59,377 bases of DNA, taken from Akkermansia muciniphila (GTDB lineage: Bacteria; Verrucomicrobiota; Verrucomicrobiia; Verrucomicrobiales; Akkermansiaceae). This document shows positions 26,138-56,127 of this stretch, in pieces. The stretch is taken from contig CAMDLP010000015.1 of the NCBI GenBank assembly GCA_945901795.1, positions 1-59,377 of the forward strand. Reading direction: 5' to 3'. Under the pieces are notes generated by a model, which was not told the DNA's origin, searched no databases, and worked only from the letters and a program-made list of their open reading frames with translations. The position numbers and the translations under genes are program-made. Position 1 is the stretch's first letter. Every line of letters starts with the position of its first letter.

Positions 26138-26209
26138 GGTCCCGTGGTCCAATGGATAGGACGATGGCCTCCGAAGCCGTAGGTAGTGGTTCGATTCCAC
26201 TCGGGACCA
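26138..26209 (+). tRNA. tRNA-Arg (anticodon CCG)
   Basis: The 72-nt cloverleaf folds cleanly. Acceptor GGTCCCG/CGGGACC is perfect, D stem GTCC/GGAC with an 8-nt loop, anticodon stem ATGGC/GCCGT with loop CTCCGAA giving anticodon CCG, variable region AGGT, and T stem AGTGG/CCACT with loop TTCGATT. The discriminator is A, and CCA is not encoded. It reads CGG codons. It marks the left edge of the accessory zone. Confidence 0.93.
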
Positions 26210-30170: not shown

Positions 30171-32369
30171 TCATTCCAGGGTTTCCTCGACGGGCTCGCA
30201 TCCGGGCAACCCGGCGTGGAGTTCACGCAACTCGGCCTGGCAGAGGTCGGCGAGTTGATGCCGGGTCTTGGTGGGACCGGTGACGGTGATGGTCAATTGG
30301 CCCTGCCGTGGTTCCATCCGGATCAAGGCCCGGGCACCCTTGCGGGACAGGATCACTCCGTGACACCACTGCAGTTTTTGTTCCCGCAATTCCTCGATGA
30401 AATCGAAACGCCGCACGATGATCCGCGCCAGCAGATCCTCCGGCACGGTCTGATAGGTATAACGCAGCCGGATGGCATTCGCCTCTTCCCGGAAATCCAC
30501 CAGACCTCCGGGTTCCTGAACCGGTTGCGTGGGGGGCAGCAGCCAGACGCCGCTGCCGGCGACGGCAAGCCCGAAACGCTCAAGCACCTTCATCAAAAAG
30601 GCGCGCCCGGCCTCGCCACTTTCCGTTAGTAGCACCCTATCCACATCGGCCTGTTTGAGGATGCCCGCCTGGTTTTCCGCGCGGTGGAGAAGCGGATAGA
30701 GATATTTTACCAGCCACCCGGACTCCATCAGTCCCGAATCATCCGGATCGTGCAGCGTGATTCCCAGATGGCGCAGGATCTCTGACAGATATTCCTGTTG
30801 TCCTGCGTCCTTCACGCCGTGTTCGAGACACCGCTCCCGGAACGCGGATTCCGTCAGGTGCTTTTCGGAAGCAAGGGCGCGGCGCACCTTGTCCCAAGCT
30901 TCGGGAAACGGCTCGCGCACCCAGGGCATGCGCTCCAACTCCCGGGAAATCGCGGCTTTCAGGGCGGGGATGCCTTTTTTCACCTTGCAGTCCATTTCCA
31001 CAAATCCGCGGACGAAGGGAAACCGTTCCCGCAGTGCGATGCGGTCCACTTCCGGGCGGCGACCGGGGACGTTCCATTGGTTCATCGCCACGATCACCGC
31101 CGGTCCTTGTCCGTGGGAATCCGTCCCGTGCGCTTCGACCATGCGCAGCCAGTATTCCGCGTCGTCGCGTTCGTGGTGGTCACGGCCGCTGAGAACCAAC
31201 AGATAGAGGTTACGCGGACTGAAGAAAAACGGATGCAGGGCGTGGGTGACCGGTTGGCCGGAAAAGTCCCAGACATGGACCGTGACCGGTTCCTCGCCGG
31301 TTCCTTCCAGCGTCCAATCGCACAACGCGACGCCCGGCGTGCTGGTTTCCCCTTCACGGTATGGTAGATCGCGCAAGGCGCGCACGATGGTGGATTTGCC
31401 CGCGCCACGGGTTCCTAGCAGGATCAACTTCACTTCGTTGAGCGGGCGGGTGGCTCCCGACTGCCTGCCGAAATAGAAGTCGAGAATCGATTTCGCCGAG
31501 GCATGTTTGGAGTCCGGGAGCCTTCGCGGGTCGGGTCCAAGGATGAGCGGGGAGAGTCGCAGCGCCGGATTGTCGTGGAGAAACAAGTGGTTGAGGTTTT
31601 CCAGATCCTTGAGGGTTTCCGGAAGCGAGGTCAGCGGATTGCCGGCCAGGTCCAGTTCGGATAGGTTTTCGAGTTGGCCGAGCTCCGCCGGCAGCGCTGC
31701 CAGATCCGTGTCGGATGCTTTGAGCACGGTCAGCTTCGCGAGTCGGCCGATCTCCGGCGGGAGGGATTCCAGCGGGTTGTGCGAGAGATCGAGCACCGTG
31801 AGCGTGGTGAGTCGGCCGATTTCAGGTGCCAGGGTTTTCAGGCGGTTGTGCGAGAGGTCGAGTCGCGTGAGTTTTGCGAGTTGGGCGAGCTCGGGTGGAA
31901 AAGTGGCCAGCGCGTTGTGGGAGAGGCCCAACCGGGTCAGGCTGGAAAGCTGGCAGATCTCCTGCGGCAGGTTTTCCAGACGGTTGTGATCGAGGTAGAG
32001 CCGGGTAAGTCCGGCGAGCCTGCCGATCTCTGCGGGGAGTTCGCGCAGCGGCGTGTGGGTGATGTCGAGGCGAGTGAGTTTGGTGAATTGGCCGATCGCC
32101 GGCGGGAGCTGGGCGAGCGGGTTGTTTGAGAGGTTGAGTCGGGCAAGATCGGTGAATAGGGAGAGTTCGGGCGGCAGGGTTTCCAGGCGGTTGTCGGCGA
32201 GATTCAACTCCGTCAATGGCGGCAGGTGGGCAATCTTTGGCGGGAGGCTTCGCAGTCGGAGACCGCTCAAGTCGAGCACGCTGCGGCGACGGCGGATGCA
32301 GTCGGTAATGCGTTCCATGGCCTCGTCGATCGACTCTTGCTCCGCTGGCTGGCTTTCAGGCTTCTGCAT
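30171..32369 (-). CDS. Bacterial Roco protein (LRR-Roc-COR GTPase)
   Basis: Roco proteins are dimeric GTPases in which a Ras-like Roc domain is fused to a COR dimerisation domain; human LRRK2 is the best known. This 732-residue protein has a helical cap (about 10-30), about ten 23-residue leucine-rich repeats (about 32-270; consensus LPPEIGRLxxLTxLDLSHNPL), a Roc domain (about 312-475) and a COR domain (about 480-732). The P-loop GTRGAGKST is at 319-327 and the switch II motif DFSGQ at 368-372. The G4 motif is NQWN (430-433) instead of N/TKxD. There is no signal peptide and no C-terminal effector domain. All neighbours for 4 kb on either side downstream and 0.8 kb upstream are relics or tiny. 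Function in bacteria is largely unknown; signalling or conflict roles are inferred. Confidence 0.9.
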   Translation of the reverse strand: MQKPESQPAEQESIDEAMERITDCIRRRRSVLDLSGLRLRSLPPKIAHLPPLTELNLADNRLETLPPELSLFTDLARLNLSNNPLAQLPPAIGQFTKLTRLDITHTPLRELPAEIGRLAGLTRLYLDHNRLENLPQEICQLSSLTRLGLSHNALATFPPELAQLAKLTRLDLSHNRLKTLAPEIGRLTTLTVLDLSHNPLESLPPEIGRLAKLTVLKASDTDLAALPAELGQLENLSELDLAGNPLTSLPETLKDLENLNHLFLHDNPALRLSPLILGPDPRRLPDSKHASAKSILDFYFGRQSGATRPLNEVKLILLGTRGAGKSTIVRALRDLPYREGETSTPGVALCDWTLEGTGEEPVTVHVWDFSGQPVTHALHPFFFSPRNLYLLVLSGRDHHERDDAEYWLRMVEAHGTDSHGQGPAVIVAMNQWNVPGRRPEVDRIALRERFPFVRGFVEMDCKVKKGIPALKAAISRELERMPWVREPFPEAWDKVRRALASEKHLTESAFRERCLEHGVKDAGQQEYLSEILRHLGITLHDPDDSGLMESGWLVKYLYPLLHRAENQAGILKQADVDRVLLTESGEAGRAFLMKVLERFGLAVAGSGVWLLPPTQPVQEPGGLVDFREEANAIRLRYTYQTVPEDLLARIIVRRFDFIEELREQKLQWCHGVILSRKGARALIRMEPRQGQLTITVTGPTKTRHQLADLCQAELRELHAGLPGCEPVEETLE

Positions 32370-53748: not shown

Positions 53749-54090
53749 CTAGGGAGCGGCGGAAGCAACGCTGTGACGACTGGCGGCGGTGGCGTCAATC
53801 TGTTCGATCACGCCGATCGGAATCGGGCGTAACGCGGAGCCGTTTTCTTCGATTTGCTTGCGGATGACAAAGCGGTTGAGCAGCTGGTCCATCCGCATCT
53901 CGGTGGTGCGGATGTCGAGTCGGCACTGCTCGACGCGGCGGTCGATCGCATCGATTTCGCGGCTGACCTGGACCTGGCGGTTTTTGTAAAAAGCGTGCAG
54001 CACTCCGCCGCCGGCGGCGATAGCGGCGGCGAGGAAGAGCGCGAAAAACGTGGATGCGGACGTGCGGGTTTCGGTGCGGCGGCGGTTCAT
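53749..54090 (-). CDS. FtsL-like division protein
   Basis: A 113-residue bitopic protein with a basic N-terminus, one membrane helix (about 13-30: FFALFLAAAIAAGGGVLHAF) and a coiled-coil region (about 38-75: VSREIDAIDRRVEQCRLDIR). Sequence identity to FtsL is always low. Size, topology and position between rsmH and ftsI identify it. It would join FtsB and FtsQ to activate FtsW-FtsI. It overlaps the rsmH stop by 4 nt. Confidence 0.85.
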   Translation of the reverse strand: MNRRRTETRTSASTFFALFLAAAIAAGGGVLHAFYKNRQVQVSREIDAIDRRVEQCRLDIRTTEMRMDQLLNRFVIRKQIEENGSALRPIPIGVIEQIDATAASRHSVASAAP

Positions 54091-55022
54091 GGCTTGAGGT
54101 CTAAAAGCTGGGCAACCCGCAGTTTTGCACTGCGGGCTCGCGGGTTCAGGGATGTTTCCTCGGCGGTGGGAATGATGGCCTTGCGGGCAAGGAGCCGGAA
54201 TTGGTAGTCCGGATTCGACCGGGGTTCGGGCCAGCCAGGCTCATCGAGAAATTCGGTGGAGCGGTGTTTTAAAAACCGTTTCACCATCCGGTCTTCGAGA
54301 CTGTGGAAGGTGATGATCAACAGGCGCCCCCCGGGTTTGAGAACGGCGGGAGCTGCGGCGAGCGCGGTGGCGAGCGATTCGAGCTCTTCGTTTACCGCCA
54401 TCCGGATCGCTTGAAATGTCTTGGTCGCGGGGTGCGTCCGGCCCTGGCGGCCGATAGCTTTTTCGATGCAGTTGGCGAGGTCGAGCGTGGTGACGAACGG
54501 CTTCTCGGCGCGCTGCCGAATGATGGCTCCGGCGATCCGGCGGGCTTTGGATTCCTCGCCGTATTCAAAAAGGATCCGGACGATGCCGGCTTCCGGCCAT
54601 TGGTTCACGATGTCCGCCGCGGTGCGCGGGCTGGATGGTCCCATCCGCATATCGAGCGGCCCCTCGCGCATGAACGAAAATCCGCGGGCGGCGGAGTCGA
54701 GCTGGCGGGAAGAGACCCCGAGATCCATCAGCAGGCAATCTGCCCGTTCCCCCATTTGGATCTCGGGGATTTCCGGGAGTCGTGAGAAGTTTCCTTCCCA
54801 CGTGGAAAAGCGTTGGCCGAATGCGGCGAGCCGCGCGCGGGCGTGGGCCAGCGCCTCCGGATCGCGATCGACGCCGAGCACGCGGGCGCCGGCTTTGAGA
54901 AAAATCTCGCTGTGTCCGCCACCGCCGAGCGTGCCGTCGATGATGAACTTGTCCGGTCCCGGAGCCATCCACTCGGCGACCTCCGCCGGGAAGACCGGAA
55001 GGTGGTAGTCGCCGGCGGCCAC
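54087..55022 (-). CDS. rsmH: 16S rRNA (cytosine-1402-N4)-methyltransferase RsmH
   Basis: RsmH methylates C1402 of 16S rRNA. From GTG 55022 the product is 311 residues, starting (M)AAGDYHLPVFPAEVAEWM, the family N-terminus. It has the SAM motif DGTLGGGGHSEIFL, DLGVSSRQLDSAARGFSF, HPATKTFQAIRMAVNEELES and FHSLEDRMVKRFL. The same frame is open without a stop back through the 105-bp repeats to ATG 55643 and beyond, which would give a 518-residue form with a repeat extension. I prefer the short form because the extension is repeat-derived, but the start is not proven. Confidence 0.9.
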   Translation of the reverse strand: MAAGDYHLPVFPAEVAEWMAPGPDKFIIDGTLGGGGHSEIFLKAGARVLGVDRDPEALAHARARLAAFGQRFSTWEGNFSRLPEIPEIQMGERADCLLMDLGVSSRQLDSAARGFSFMREGPLDMRMGPSSPRTAADIVNQWPEAGIVRILFEYGEESKARRIAGAIIRQRAEKPFVTTLDLANCIEKAIGRQGRTHPATKTFQAIRMAVNEELESLATALAAAPAVLKPGGRLLIITFHSLEDRMVKRFLKHRSTEFLDEPGWPEPRSNPDYQFRLLARKAIIPTAEETSLNPRARSAKLRVAQLLDLKP

Positions 55023-55053
55023 GGTTTCTGAAAAATCGACGGGAGCCTGCGCT

Positions 55054-55560
55054 GACAACCAGCCAGGAGCAGCGCAGGCATCCGTTTGATCGACAAAGCG
55101 ACGTGCTGTCCCGAGCCCGCCGTCTTGTGCTGAAAGAAAAATTTGCGATGGACGCGCGGACAACACCCCTGAAGCGGCGCGCACCATCGTTTCAAATAGC
55201 GAGTGGAGAACATTCCCGAAAAACTCCAGTCGCCAAGCCATGAAAGTCAGCGGACGCCGCCCCGACAACCAGCCAGGAGCGGTGCGGACGTCCGTTAGGA
55301 TCGACGAAGCGGCGTGCTGTCCCGAGCCAGCCAATTCGTCTGAAAGGAAAATTTGCGACGGCCGCGCTGACAACCAGCCAGGAGCAGCGCGGACCATCGA
55401 TTCAAAAAGCGCGAGAAGCTCTGTCCCGAGAGACTTCGCGCGCCCAGCCATGAAAATCAGCGGATGCCGCGCCGACAACCAGCCAGGAGCGGTGCGGACA
55501 TCCGTTTGGAAAGACGAAGCGGCGTGCTGTCCCGAGCCAGCCGATTCATCTAAAAAGAGT
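55054..55560. repeat. 105-bp tandem repeat array between mraZ and rsmH (alternating A/B units)
   Basis: The word GACAACCAGCCAGGAGC or a variant recurs at 55054, 55159 (diverged), 55264, 55369 and 55474, exactly 105 bp apart. Units alternate between an A type (55054, 55264, 55474) and a B type (55159, 55369), so the closest matches are 210 bp apart. The last A unit fades near 55560. On the minus strand each unit codes 35 residues, for example the B unit starting ARHPLIFMAGRAKSLGTELL and the A unit starting ARPSQIFLSDELAGSGQHAA, each ending APGWLS. A plus-strand frame is also open. There are no spacers, so it is not CRISPR. Confidence 0.9.
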
Positions 55561-55674
55561 CCCAATCCTGACACCCGGGCGAAAGCGGCCGGAGCCGCAG
55601 AGCGGACCGCCTCGAGTGTCAGAATTGGTGGGGTGAACAACATTGCTGCTGTTGGGTGTGTGGTGGGTGAGTGT

Positions 55675-56127
55675 TTAGAGAATTCCGAGTTCGTCCTCGT
55701 CGGCTTGGTTACGCTCGATTTCGAGCGCGCGGAGGTGGTTCTCTTTATTCCAGACTTCGAAGTGCAGGCCGCGTCCCGCGAGCACCACTTCCGATTCCGA
55801 GGAGATTCCGGCGGTTTCACTGAGATCCTTGGGGACCAGCAGCTTGCCTTGGTCATTCACGCTCGCCTCGCGGCAAAGCATCGAAAGGCTGCCGAGATAC
55901 GCGGTTTTCTTCGCAGGAGTGAGATCGCTGTTTTTCACGGTCTCCACGCGCTCGTTGAACGCTTGTTGGCTGAGCACCTTGATCACCGGCATGTCGTGCG
56001 TCTTGGAAGACAGCAGAAACAAAACCTCGCCAGCGGCTGGACGCCACGCGGTCGGGATGGAAACCCGAAACTTCGGGTCCATCTTGTAGGGCGTGTAACC
56101 CATGTAGCTTTGTTCGGCGGTGTTCAC
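55675..56127 (-). CDS. mraZ: Division/cell wall cluster regulator MraZ
   Basis: MraZ is an AbrB-like DNA-binding protein that regulates the dcw cluster. The 150-residue product carries two SpoVT/AbrB-type domains: YKMDPKFRVSIPTAWRPAAG (about 14-60) and ASVNDQGKLLVPKDLSETAG (about 88-135). The first has KFR where GKGR/PKGR is common. The frame starts at GTG 56127; ATG 56103 (MGYTPYKMD) is an alternative. It heads the division cluster but is separated from rsmH by 650 bp of repeats. Confidence 0.92.
   Translation of the reverse strand: MNTAEQSYMGYTPYKMDPKFRVSIPTAWRPAAGEVLFLLSSKTHDMPVIKVLSQQAFNERVETVKNSDLTPAKKTAYLGSLSMLCREASVNDQGKLLVPKDLSETAGISSESEVVLAGRGLHFEVWNKENHLRALEIERNQADEDELGIL

Follow-up and report, generated by a model that had tools for sequence, protein, structure and literature searches.

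A tandem array of covarying hairpins inside the rsmH reading frame of Luteolibacter-like bacteria: a candidate structured mRNA element

Introduction

What is a tandem array of 105-bp units doing at the head of a dcw cluster? In the window analysed here (the whole stretch of 59,377 nucleotides, deposited as Akkermansia muciniphila), the first-pass annotation described five such units, alternating as A-B-A-B-A, as separating mraZ from rsmH, and suggested that they might form an RNA structure, bind a protein or have a coding role. The product of rsmH methylates C1402 of 16S rRNA, in the decoding centre. The source genome is Luteolibacter-like and belongs to the family Akkermansiaceae; its close relatives are Luteolibacter pohnpeiensis, several Akkermansiaceae MAGs and two MAGs titled Akkermansia muciniphila. 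These last two (L037 and L038) carry the array and share 90% RsmH identity with it, and for those reasons look mislabelled.

Results

The array lies within rsmH

On the minus strand the genes run in the order mraZ, rsmH, an ORF and a penicillin-binding protein. The mraZ ORF upstream of rsmH (55675..56127, minus strand; PF02381 MraZ, E=2.1e-7) is followed by an A/C-rich leader of 31 nt on the same strand (55644..55674), reaching from the mraZ stop to the rsmH start, in which no Shine-Dalgarno sequence is evident. The open frame of rsmH (54087..55643, minus strand), kept in relatives and with its likely start at ATG 55643-55641, would encode 518 aa. These comprise an N-terminal extension, without a Pfam match at E 0.001, and a methyltransferase core (54087..55019, minus strand) that is recognised by Pfam (PF01795, E=8.1e-101) and NCBIfam (TIGR00006) and forms the folded part of an AlphaFold2 model. 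The array sits between ATG 55643 and the core, which is reached at about 55019; it is inside the rsmH reading frame, and not between mraZ and rsmH as originally described. A start past the array was considered and rejected: there is a GTG near the core here, yet some relatives have, by eye, neither Met nor Val at that place. The in-frame TTG found in the loop of most M1 hairpins (described below) is a possible alternative start, though one that would leave the stop-free frame unexplained. A second RsmH-like protein, with 37% identity to the core part, is encoded elsewhere in the same genome (G000:C4:33150-33947), as it is in many relatives of the order. The window also holds a 69-bp tandem repeat (31722-31862, 2.0 copies, 79% matches), which by eye presumably resembles leucine-rich repeat coding sequence.

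The repeat unit and its confinement to one locus

That a 105-bp array of A and B units exists is borne out by three comparisons. Tandem Repeats Finder reports 55054-55555 with a period of 210, 2.4 copies and a score of 648; the intervals 55130-55339 and 55340-55549 are 210-nt direct repeats of 83% identity; and, when units are cut ungapped at 105-bp steps from 55054, unit 2 is 75% identical to unit 4 and unit 3 is 76% identical to unit 5, the remaining pairs showing 43-60% and the flanks 29-38%. These identities fit alternation for units 2-5 of this series; unit 1 shows 59% identity to unit 3 and 60% to unit 4, and its assignment to type A rests on hairpin form, not identity.

The conserved 17-bp unit start that had been singled out is indeed conserved, the 16-mer GACAACCAGCCAGGAG being the exact start of four of the five units and drifted in the copy at 55159; it is the loop of one of the two hairpins, read on the antisense strand. 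Allowing up to three mismatches, GACAACCAGCCAGGAG has five matches in the window, four of them within the array (0.52 expected), a count equalled in none of 100 shuffles; with up to two mismatches it has six in the whole genome, again four in the array. Searched against the same genome at E 0.001, a covariance model of the unit (R1) returned five matches, all in this array, and the unit is accordingly not a dispersed one.

Each 105-nt unit consists of a hairpin M2, with the loop motif CUCGGGACAG, and a hairpin M1, with the loop CUGGCUGGUUGUC. As defined by the model the units span 55034-55560, all on the minus strand. In mRNA order, unit 1 (55454..55560, R1 100.1 bits) has an M2 loop of form A at 55536-55527 and M1 at 55486-55474; unit 2 (55349..55454, 92.6 bits) has M2 of form B at 55430-55421 and M1 at 55381-55369; unit 3 (55244..55350, 100.4 bits) returns to form A at 55326-55317, with M1 at 55276-55264; unit 4 (55139..55244, 45.5 bits) has hairpins predicted by folding, with the loops of both drifted; and unit 5 (55034..55139, 101.2 bits) carries form A at 55115-55106 and M1 at 55066-55054.

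An open frame with a little-constrained peptide

Since the array lies in rsmH, it might be a repetitive N-terminal domain of the protein, in which 35-residue units with the motif A[P/S]GWLSAR help RsmH to reach the ribosome. The reading frame speaks for such a domain. From start to core, the rsmH frame is free of stops in all 67 usable loci (11,354 codons), the count beginning at the earliest ATG in frame, no more than 170 nt from the mraZ stop, and leaving out five loci without mraZ, G009 (which has stops and a frameshift, and whose record title gives a coverage of 2.3) and G264 (which has runs of N). The other two frames contain 191 and 168 stops and are stop-free in just 2 and 6 loci. The coding role suspected at first is thereby upheld, coding and RNA structure overlapping in one sequence; of the claim that a frame is open on each strand, the minus-strand half is correct, and on the plus strand no frame does better than a single stop. 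Of the 67 predicted proteins, 42 begin with MLF, a further point in favour of a protein-level role, and 25 begin otherwise.

The pattern of substitution argues the other way. Across 21 overlapping pairs of close relatives, mutually non-independent, divergence at the three codon positions is 0.051/0.028/0.237 in the core, the usual pattern, and a nearly even 0.075/0.069/0.104 in the extension, where a slight third-position excess is what the protein-level reading can claim. In the loops, synonymous sites hardly vary: the Leu codon of the GWL loop is TTG in 210 of 213 cases, against 13.5% of Leu in the cores, and in the LGT loop Thr is ACA in 187/192 and Gly is GGG in 186/192, against 10.8% and 19.2% in the cores. 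In some copies the nucleotides of the M2 motif are read in another frame: across 56 loci this holds for 14 of 146 copies, two of which belong to the present array, and across 74 loci for 19 of 218. An AlphaFold2 model, made from an alignment of 12 sequences with the first 20 residues omitted, has pLDDT under 50 at residues 1-197 of the modelled piece, mostly about 20-30 over residues 1-190, with almost no secondary structure there and a folded core. Neither the codon positions nor this 12-sequence model supports a selected peptide or a fold such as a repeat protein domain would have, and the lack of a Pfam match points the same way; we consider a protein-level role distinctly unlikely. Because divergence is nearly even across codon positions and synonymous loop sites are almost fixed, the extension appears to be translated yet conserved mainly as RNA, with a peptide that is little constrained.

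Covariation of the stems

The proposal that the unit forms an RNA structure is supported by covariation, both in the unit stems and in a further stem close to the start. The R1 model was built from 61 of 156 units, chosen for diversity, and since the unit search that fed it demanded the cores CGGGA and GGCTGG, the invariance of the loops in the resulting alignment (A1) is partly by construction. Over its 24 pairs, 82.5% of cells are paired, against 64.7 in shuffles; double-change cells number 309 against 113.5; and 23 of the 24 pairs covary. The covariation score of 0.511 (0.201 shuffled) was reached in none of 500 shuffles, and controls with a slid register scored at most 0.205. On these alignments, conservation of the unit as an RNA structure is strongly supported.

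Hairpin M2 occurs in two forms. Among unique copies with exact CGGGAC, 130 belong to form A, which has a 2x2 internal loop, and 110 to form B, which is bulged on its 5' side; these forms, which tend to alternate within arrays though not strictly, are the A/B alternation noted earlier. Their paired fractions are 80% and 85%, values biased upward because each copy was assigned to the form in which it pairs better. GGCTGG directly precedes the stem in 66 of the 110 form B copies, against 11 of the 130 of form A.

Ahead of the array, a cap stem of 13 bp begins at nucleotide 16 of rsmH (55562..55628, minus strand; 55628-55616 pairs with 55574-55562). Over 51 sequences, 76.9% of its cells are paired, against 67.5 shuffled, with 80 double changes against 33.8 and a score of 0.356 against 0.213 that none of 500 shuffles reached. 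In 38 of the 51, a set that omits by eye 13 of the more divergent sequences, the paired fraction is 85.0%, with 61 double changes against 21.7; the figures that we use are those of all 51. Several loci with starts other than MLF do not have the cap stem.

It could still be argued that the array is a neutral passenger, a GC-rich repeat that expands readily and is tolerated for its lack of stops, and the variable unit number and linkers would fit this. However, a passenger does not account for covariation and loop conservation in many species, or for a cap stem in two genera, and we hold this explanation to be very improbable indeed.

The case for structure rests on covariation and not on energy, the predicted stability of the array being modest. 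Its shuffle z-score is -2.35 on the mRNA strand and -5.64 on the opposite strand; after GC correction, 12 sense folding windows over the array average -0.92 SD and the antisense ones -0.61. The folding window with the start codon and cap stem reaches -2.71 SD, which places it in the bottom 20 of 3,388 windows after GC correction. That the structured strand is that of the mRNA is indicated by the reading frame and by a weak excess of G-U pairs (ratio 1.79 against 1.31 shuffled; one slid control gave 1.78). A count of ungapped hairpins of at least 11 bp found six in the window and none in the array, whose stems it misses because they contain bulges, mismatches and internal loops.

Occurrence among related genomes

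An RsmH query matched 96 of the 99 genomes searched (the source genome included), some of them weakly. From the source's own genus (g1) we took 56 loci, leaving out G007 and G033, with no match, and G024, G025 and G059, with weak ones; of 20 further pieces from g1 and a second genus, g22, 18 contain the rsmH core. The total of 74 loci inspected represents a part of the R1-positive genomes, and mraZ is present in the piece for 69. Between the mraZ stop and the core of these 69 lie 348 to 967 nt, with many values near 350, 453, 560-594 and 655-690, and genomes have from 1 to 8 R1 matches, the number changing in steps of about 105 bp.

Searches with R1, which at large scale ran under stricter filters and so may miss weak relatives and second loci, gave matches in at least 39 of 288 genomes of the order (2 of 50 genera among the matches listed), at least 84 of 244 of the family (2 of 16 genera among the matches listed, 14 being without one) and at least 10 of 387 of the phylum (2 of 197 genera among the matches listed). 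The positive genomes of the family number at least 67 in g1 and at least 17 in g22. Within g1, the two genomes without a match among those listed are G007 and G033, both incomplete. Four genomes (G018, G026, G034 and G167) have R1 matches on two contigs each, again among the matches listed.

An element that changes its copy number in steps near 105 bp invites a DNA-level explanation, namely that the units are relic or domesticated palindromes of the REP/RPE kind, forming single-stranded DNA hairpins, copied by recombination and lodged in frame in rsmH. The enzymes associated with such repeats are at hand: Y1_Tnp (RAYT-like) matches occur in 18 of 19 genomes searched, and the genome studied here has 11, ten of them over the cut-off. 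These 11 places (C90:592-765 in G000, for example) all lie off the contig of the window, so that a RAYT gene is present in the genome and not beside the array. In-frame REPs are known, including from the verrucomicrobium O. terrae in the available text of one study (PMC3733652), and a RAYT-like N-terminal domain occupies the same place of RsmH in genus g21 (see below). Against this stand the single array, with no dispersed copies in the genome, and the tags: of 156 units, 3 contain GTAG (47.8 in shuffles) and 82 contain CGTC (79.1 in shuffles), so that neither is enriched when counted as present anywhere in the unit rather than at its termini, though part of the GTAG depletion may be avoidance of stops. 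Moreover, the loops stay while the stems vary, and the array occupies the same place in two genera; a DNA-level origin therefore seems to us quite improbable. A phage origin was also considered and rejected, the two-loop pattern having no exact match in viral_contigs, and no plasmid homologues of the rsmH extension were found.

The same interval in sister genera

In genera other than g1 and g22, the interval from mraZ to the core is different and often structured. Fold z-scores (60 shuffles each) lie between -2.2 and -5.0 in seven of 12 sampled genera of the family (g23, g25, g26, g27, g29, g30 and g31) and above -2 in g21, g24, g28, g32 and g33. Among outgroups of the order, most of which gave no mraZ and were folded over the 200 nt preceding the core instead, one of 19 with a value fell below -2; core controls were at -2 or below in 5 of 33, g26 included. 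We treat the structured stretches of these genera as a lead only.

Individual loci show a variety of forms. In g24 (L169), which is not among the R1-positive genera in the matches listed, the rsmH extension has two hairpins, GGCTGGGCGG...AAGGGACGGC...CCGCC, which resemble form B of M2. In g29 (L174), two hairpins about 170 nt apart have a common loop, GGGATGACTTGGAGGGAGTCCC, and unlike arms; they are another hairpin family at the same place. In L173, L175 and L179 (g30, g31 and g25) a single long stem, noted by eye, is predicted shortly downstream of the rsmH start; its arms are of the CCAAC/GTTGG type, and it is perhaps the ancestor of the cap stem.

Genus g21, which is probably Akkermansia, differs again: in two loci (L180:856-1500 and L182:853-1500) the N-terminal part of RsmH is a domain of some 200 residues that contains the motif NHVHV. 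Its match to Y1_Tnp is weak (E 0.003, 18.1 bits, cut-off 23), and a profile comparison from two sequences, over 61 columns, gave RAYT-like with a probability of 94.7%; in a third locus (L183) the domain was not seen, and there is a weak resolvase-like match. Judging by these similarities, the domain is possibly a domesticated hairpin-binding transposase domain that became fused to an rRNA methyltransferase.

Discussion

We propose, with about even confidence, that the array is a structured RNA within the translated 5' portion of the rsmH message, whose hairpins gate translation in cis. The hairpins would determine how fast ribosomes initiate on rsmH or move clear of it, the loops would serve as contact sites for a putative factor, and the number of units would set the strength of the control. 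That the array tunes rsmH expression is plausible.

Another possibility is that the hairpins act on processing or stability, being cut (by RNase III, for example) or protective, and so uncouple mraZ from downstream dcw levels or release a trans-acting small RNA. Tandem stems directly after mraZ speak for this, and there is a parallel in UpsM, a small RNA that R. sphaeroides has in its extended dcw leader, going by the available part of the report (PMC5089854). The frame, however, is kept open, which is needless for an RNA that is to be cut or released. Neither RNase III cutting nor protection of an mRNA is known to require conserved loops, and the loops here are conserved; we regard a role in processing or stability as unlikely, if a more serious contender than the others.

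If the hairpins do gate translation in cis, as we prefer to think, something should recognise their loops. Hairpins that sequester CsrA through GGA were ruled out, as no CsrA (PF02599) is encoded in any of 19 genomes, the control rings having it in 3 of 14. Mimicry of tRNA by the loops was rejected as well, similarity being not above that of shuffles in a test of 30 of the genome's 39 tRNA matches (32 ARAGORN calls, two places being seen twice). Mimicry of, or antisense pairing with, 16S rRNA, taken from two relatives as no 16S was found in the source assembly, was not clearly above shuffles either; the strongest candidate, M2 in antisense, was equalled by 24 and by 26 of 300 shuffles. With CsrA absent and both kinds of mimicry unsupported, the conserved loops need a further partner.

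The ribosome itself offers a bolder version of the proposal. According to the available text of a preprint, B. subtilis ribosomes without the MraW (RsmH) mark translate mRNAs with early stem-loops poorly, and one MraW-dependent mRNA has its stem in codons 2-11 (PMC13317604). Together with the methylation of C1402 by RsmH and the early stem found here, this leads us to a possible self-sensing, in which translation of rsmH would depend on RsmH: the mRNA would register whether the ribosomes translating it are methylated, closing a feedback loop. In its full form, the rsmH mRNA would be a sensor of C1402 methylation, the units would tune the gain, the loops would add a contact to the ribosome or a protein, and the RAYT-like domain of g21 would hint at a shared origin in hairpin recognition. 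We consider this extension improbable. It draws on a preprint result from a distant phylum, and feedback explains neither the conserved loops nor the presence of up to eight units.

Whatever its mode of action, the array accounts for the over-long RsmH of this group, which could be mistaken for a repeat protein, and presents a single sequence that serves both an RNA structure and an obligatory stop-free frame in a widespread rRNA methyltransferase gene. Should it prove to gate rsmH, the array would provide a natural, copy-number-graded system for testing ribosome-methylation feedback on the translation of mRNAs with structure, an issue that work on B. subtilis brought up in 2026.

Comparison with known systems

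Judged by sequence comparison, the array would be a new family of structured mRNA element. In Rfam 15 the window has a sole match at the gathering score, a tRNA at 26138-26209, and the interval 54900-55750, scanned at E up to 5, has five matches, all far under the gathering score; the mraW RNA motif (RF01746) is in neither scan. In the open-licence literature we found no description of the element and no paper on Luteolibacter rsmH or on an N-terminal extension of verrucomicrobial RsmH (MraW). The mraW motif, a candidate structured RNA of Actinomycetales in the available part of its description (PMC2864571), shares the gene name but belongs to another phylum, whereas the array is in frame and tandem.

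Intragenic REP/RPE sequences are likewise palindromic repeats in frame within protein genes, and in the available text their clusters code for 43 to 82 residues (PMC3733652). There they are GTAG/CGTC-tagged families found mostly genome-wide, whereas the array is at one locus without an enriched tag and differs further in that two hairpins alternate, their loops conserved and their stems covarying, in the same gene of two genera. UpsM, like the array, is an RNA element at the start of a dcw cluster, but by its title it is a small RNA in the leader before the cluster (PMC5089854), while the array is inside rsmH. The B. subtilis genes cmpA, isp and yukJ have stem-loops at or just after the start and a possible dependence on C1402 methylation; their stems are single, in other genes and in no tandem array, and the available text does not list rsmH among the targets (PMC13317604). 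Structured cis elements of mRNA are thus known in themselves, and what is unusual here is that the element is tandem, translated and tied to one gene.
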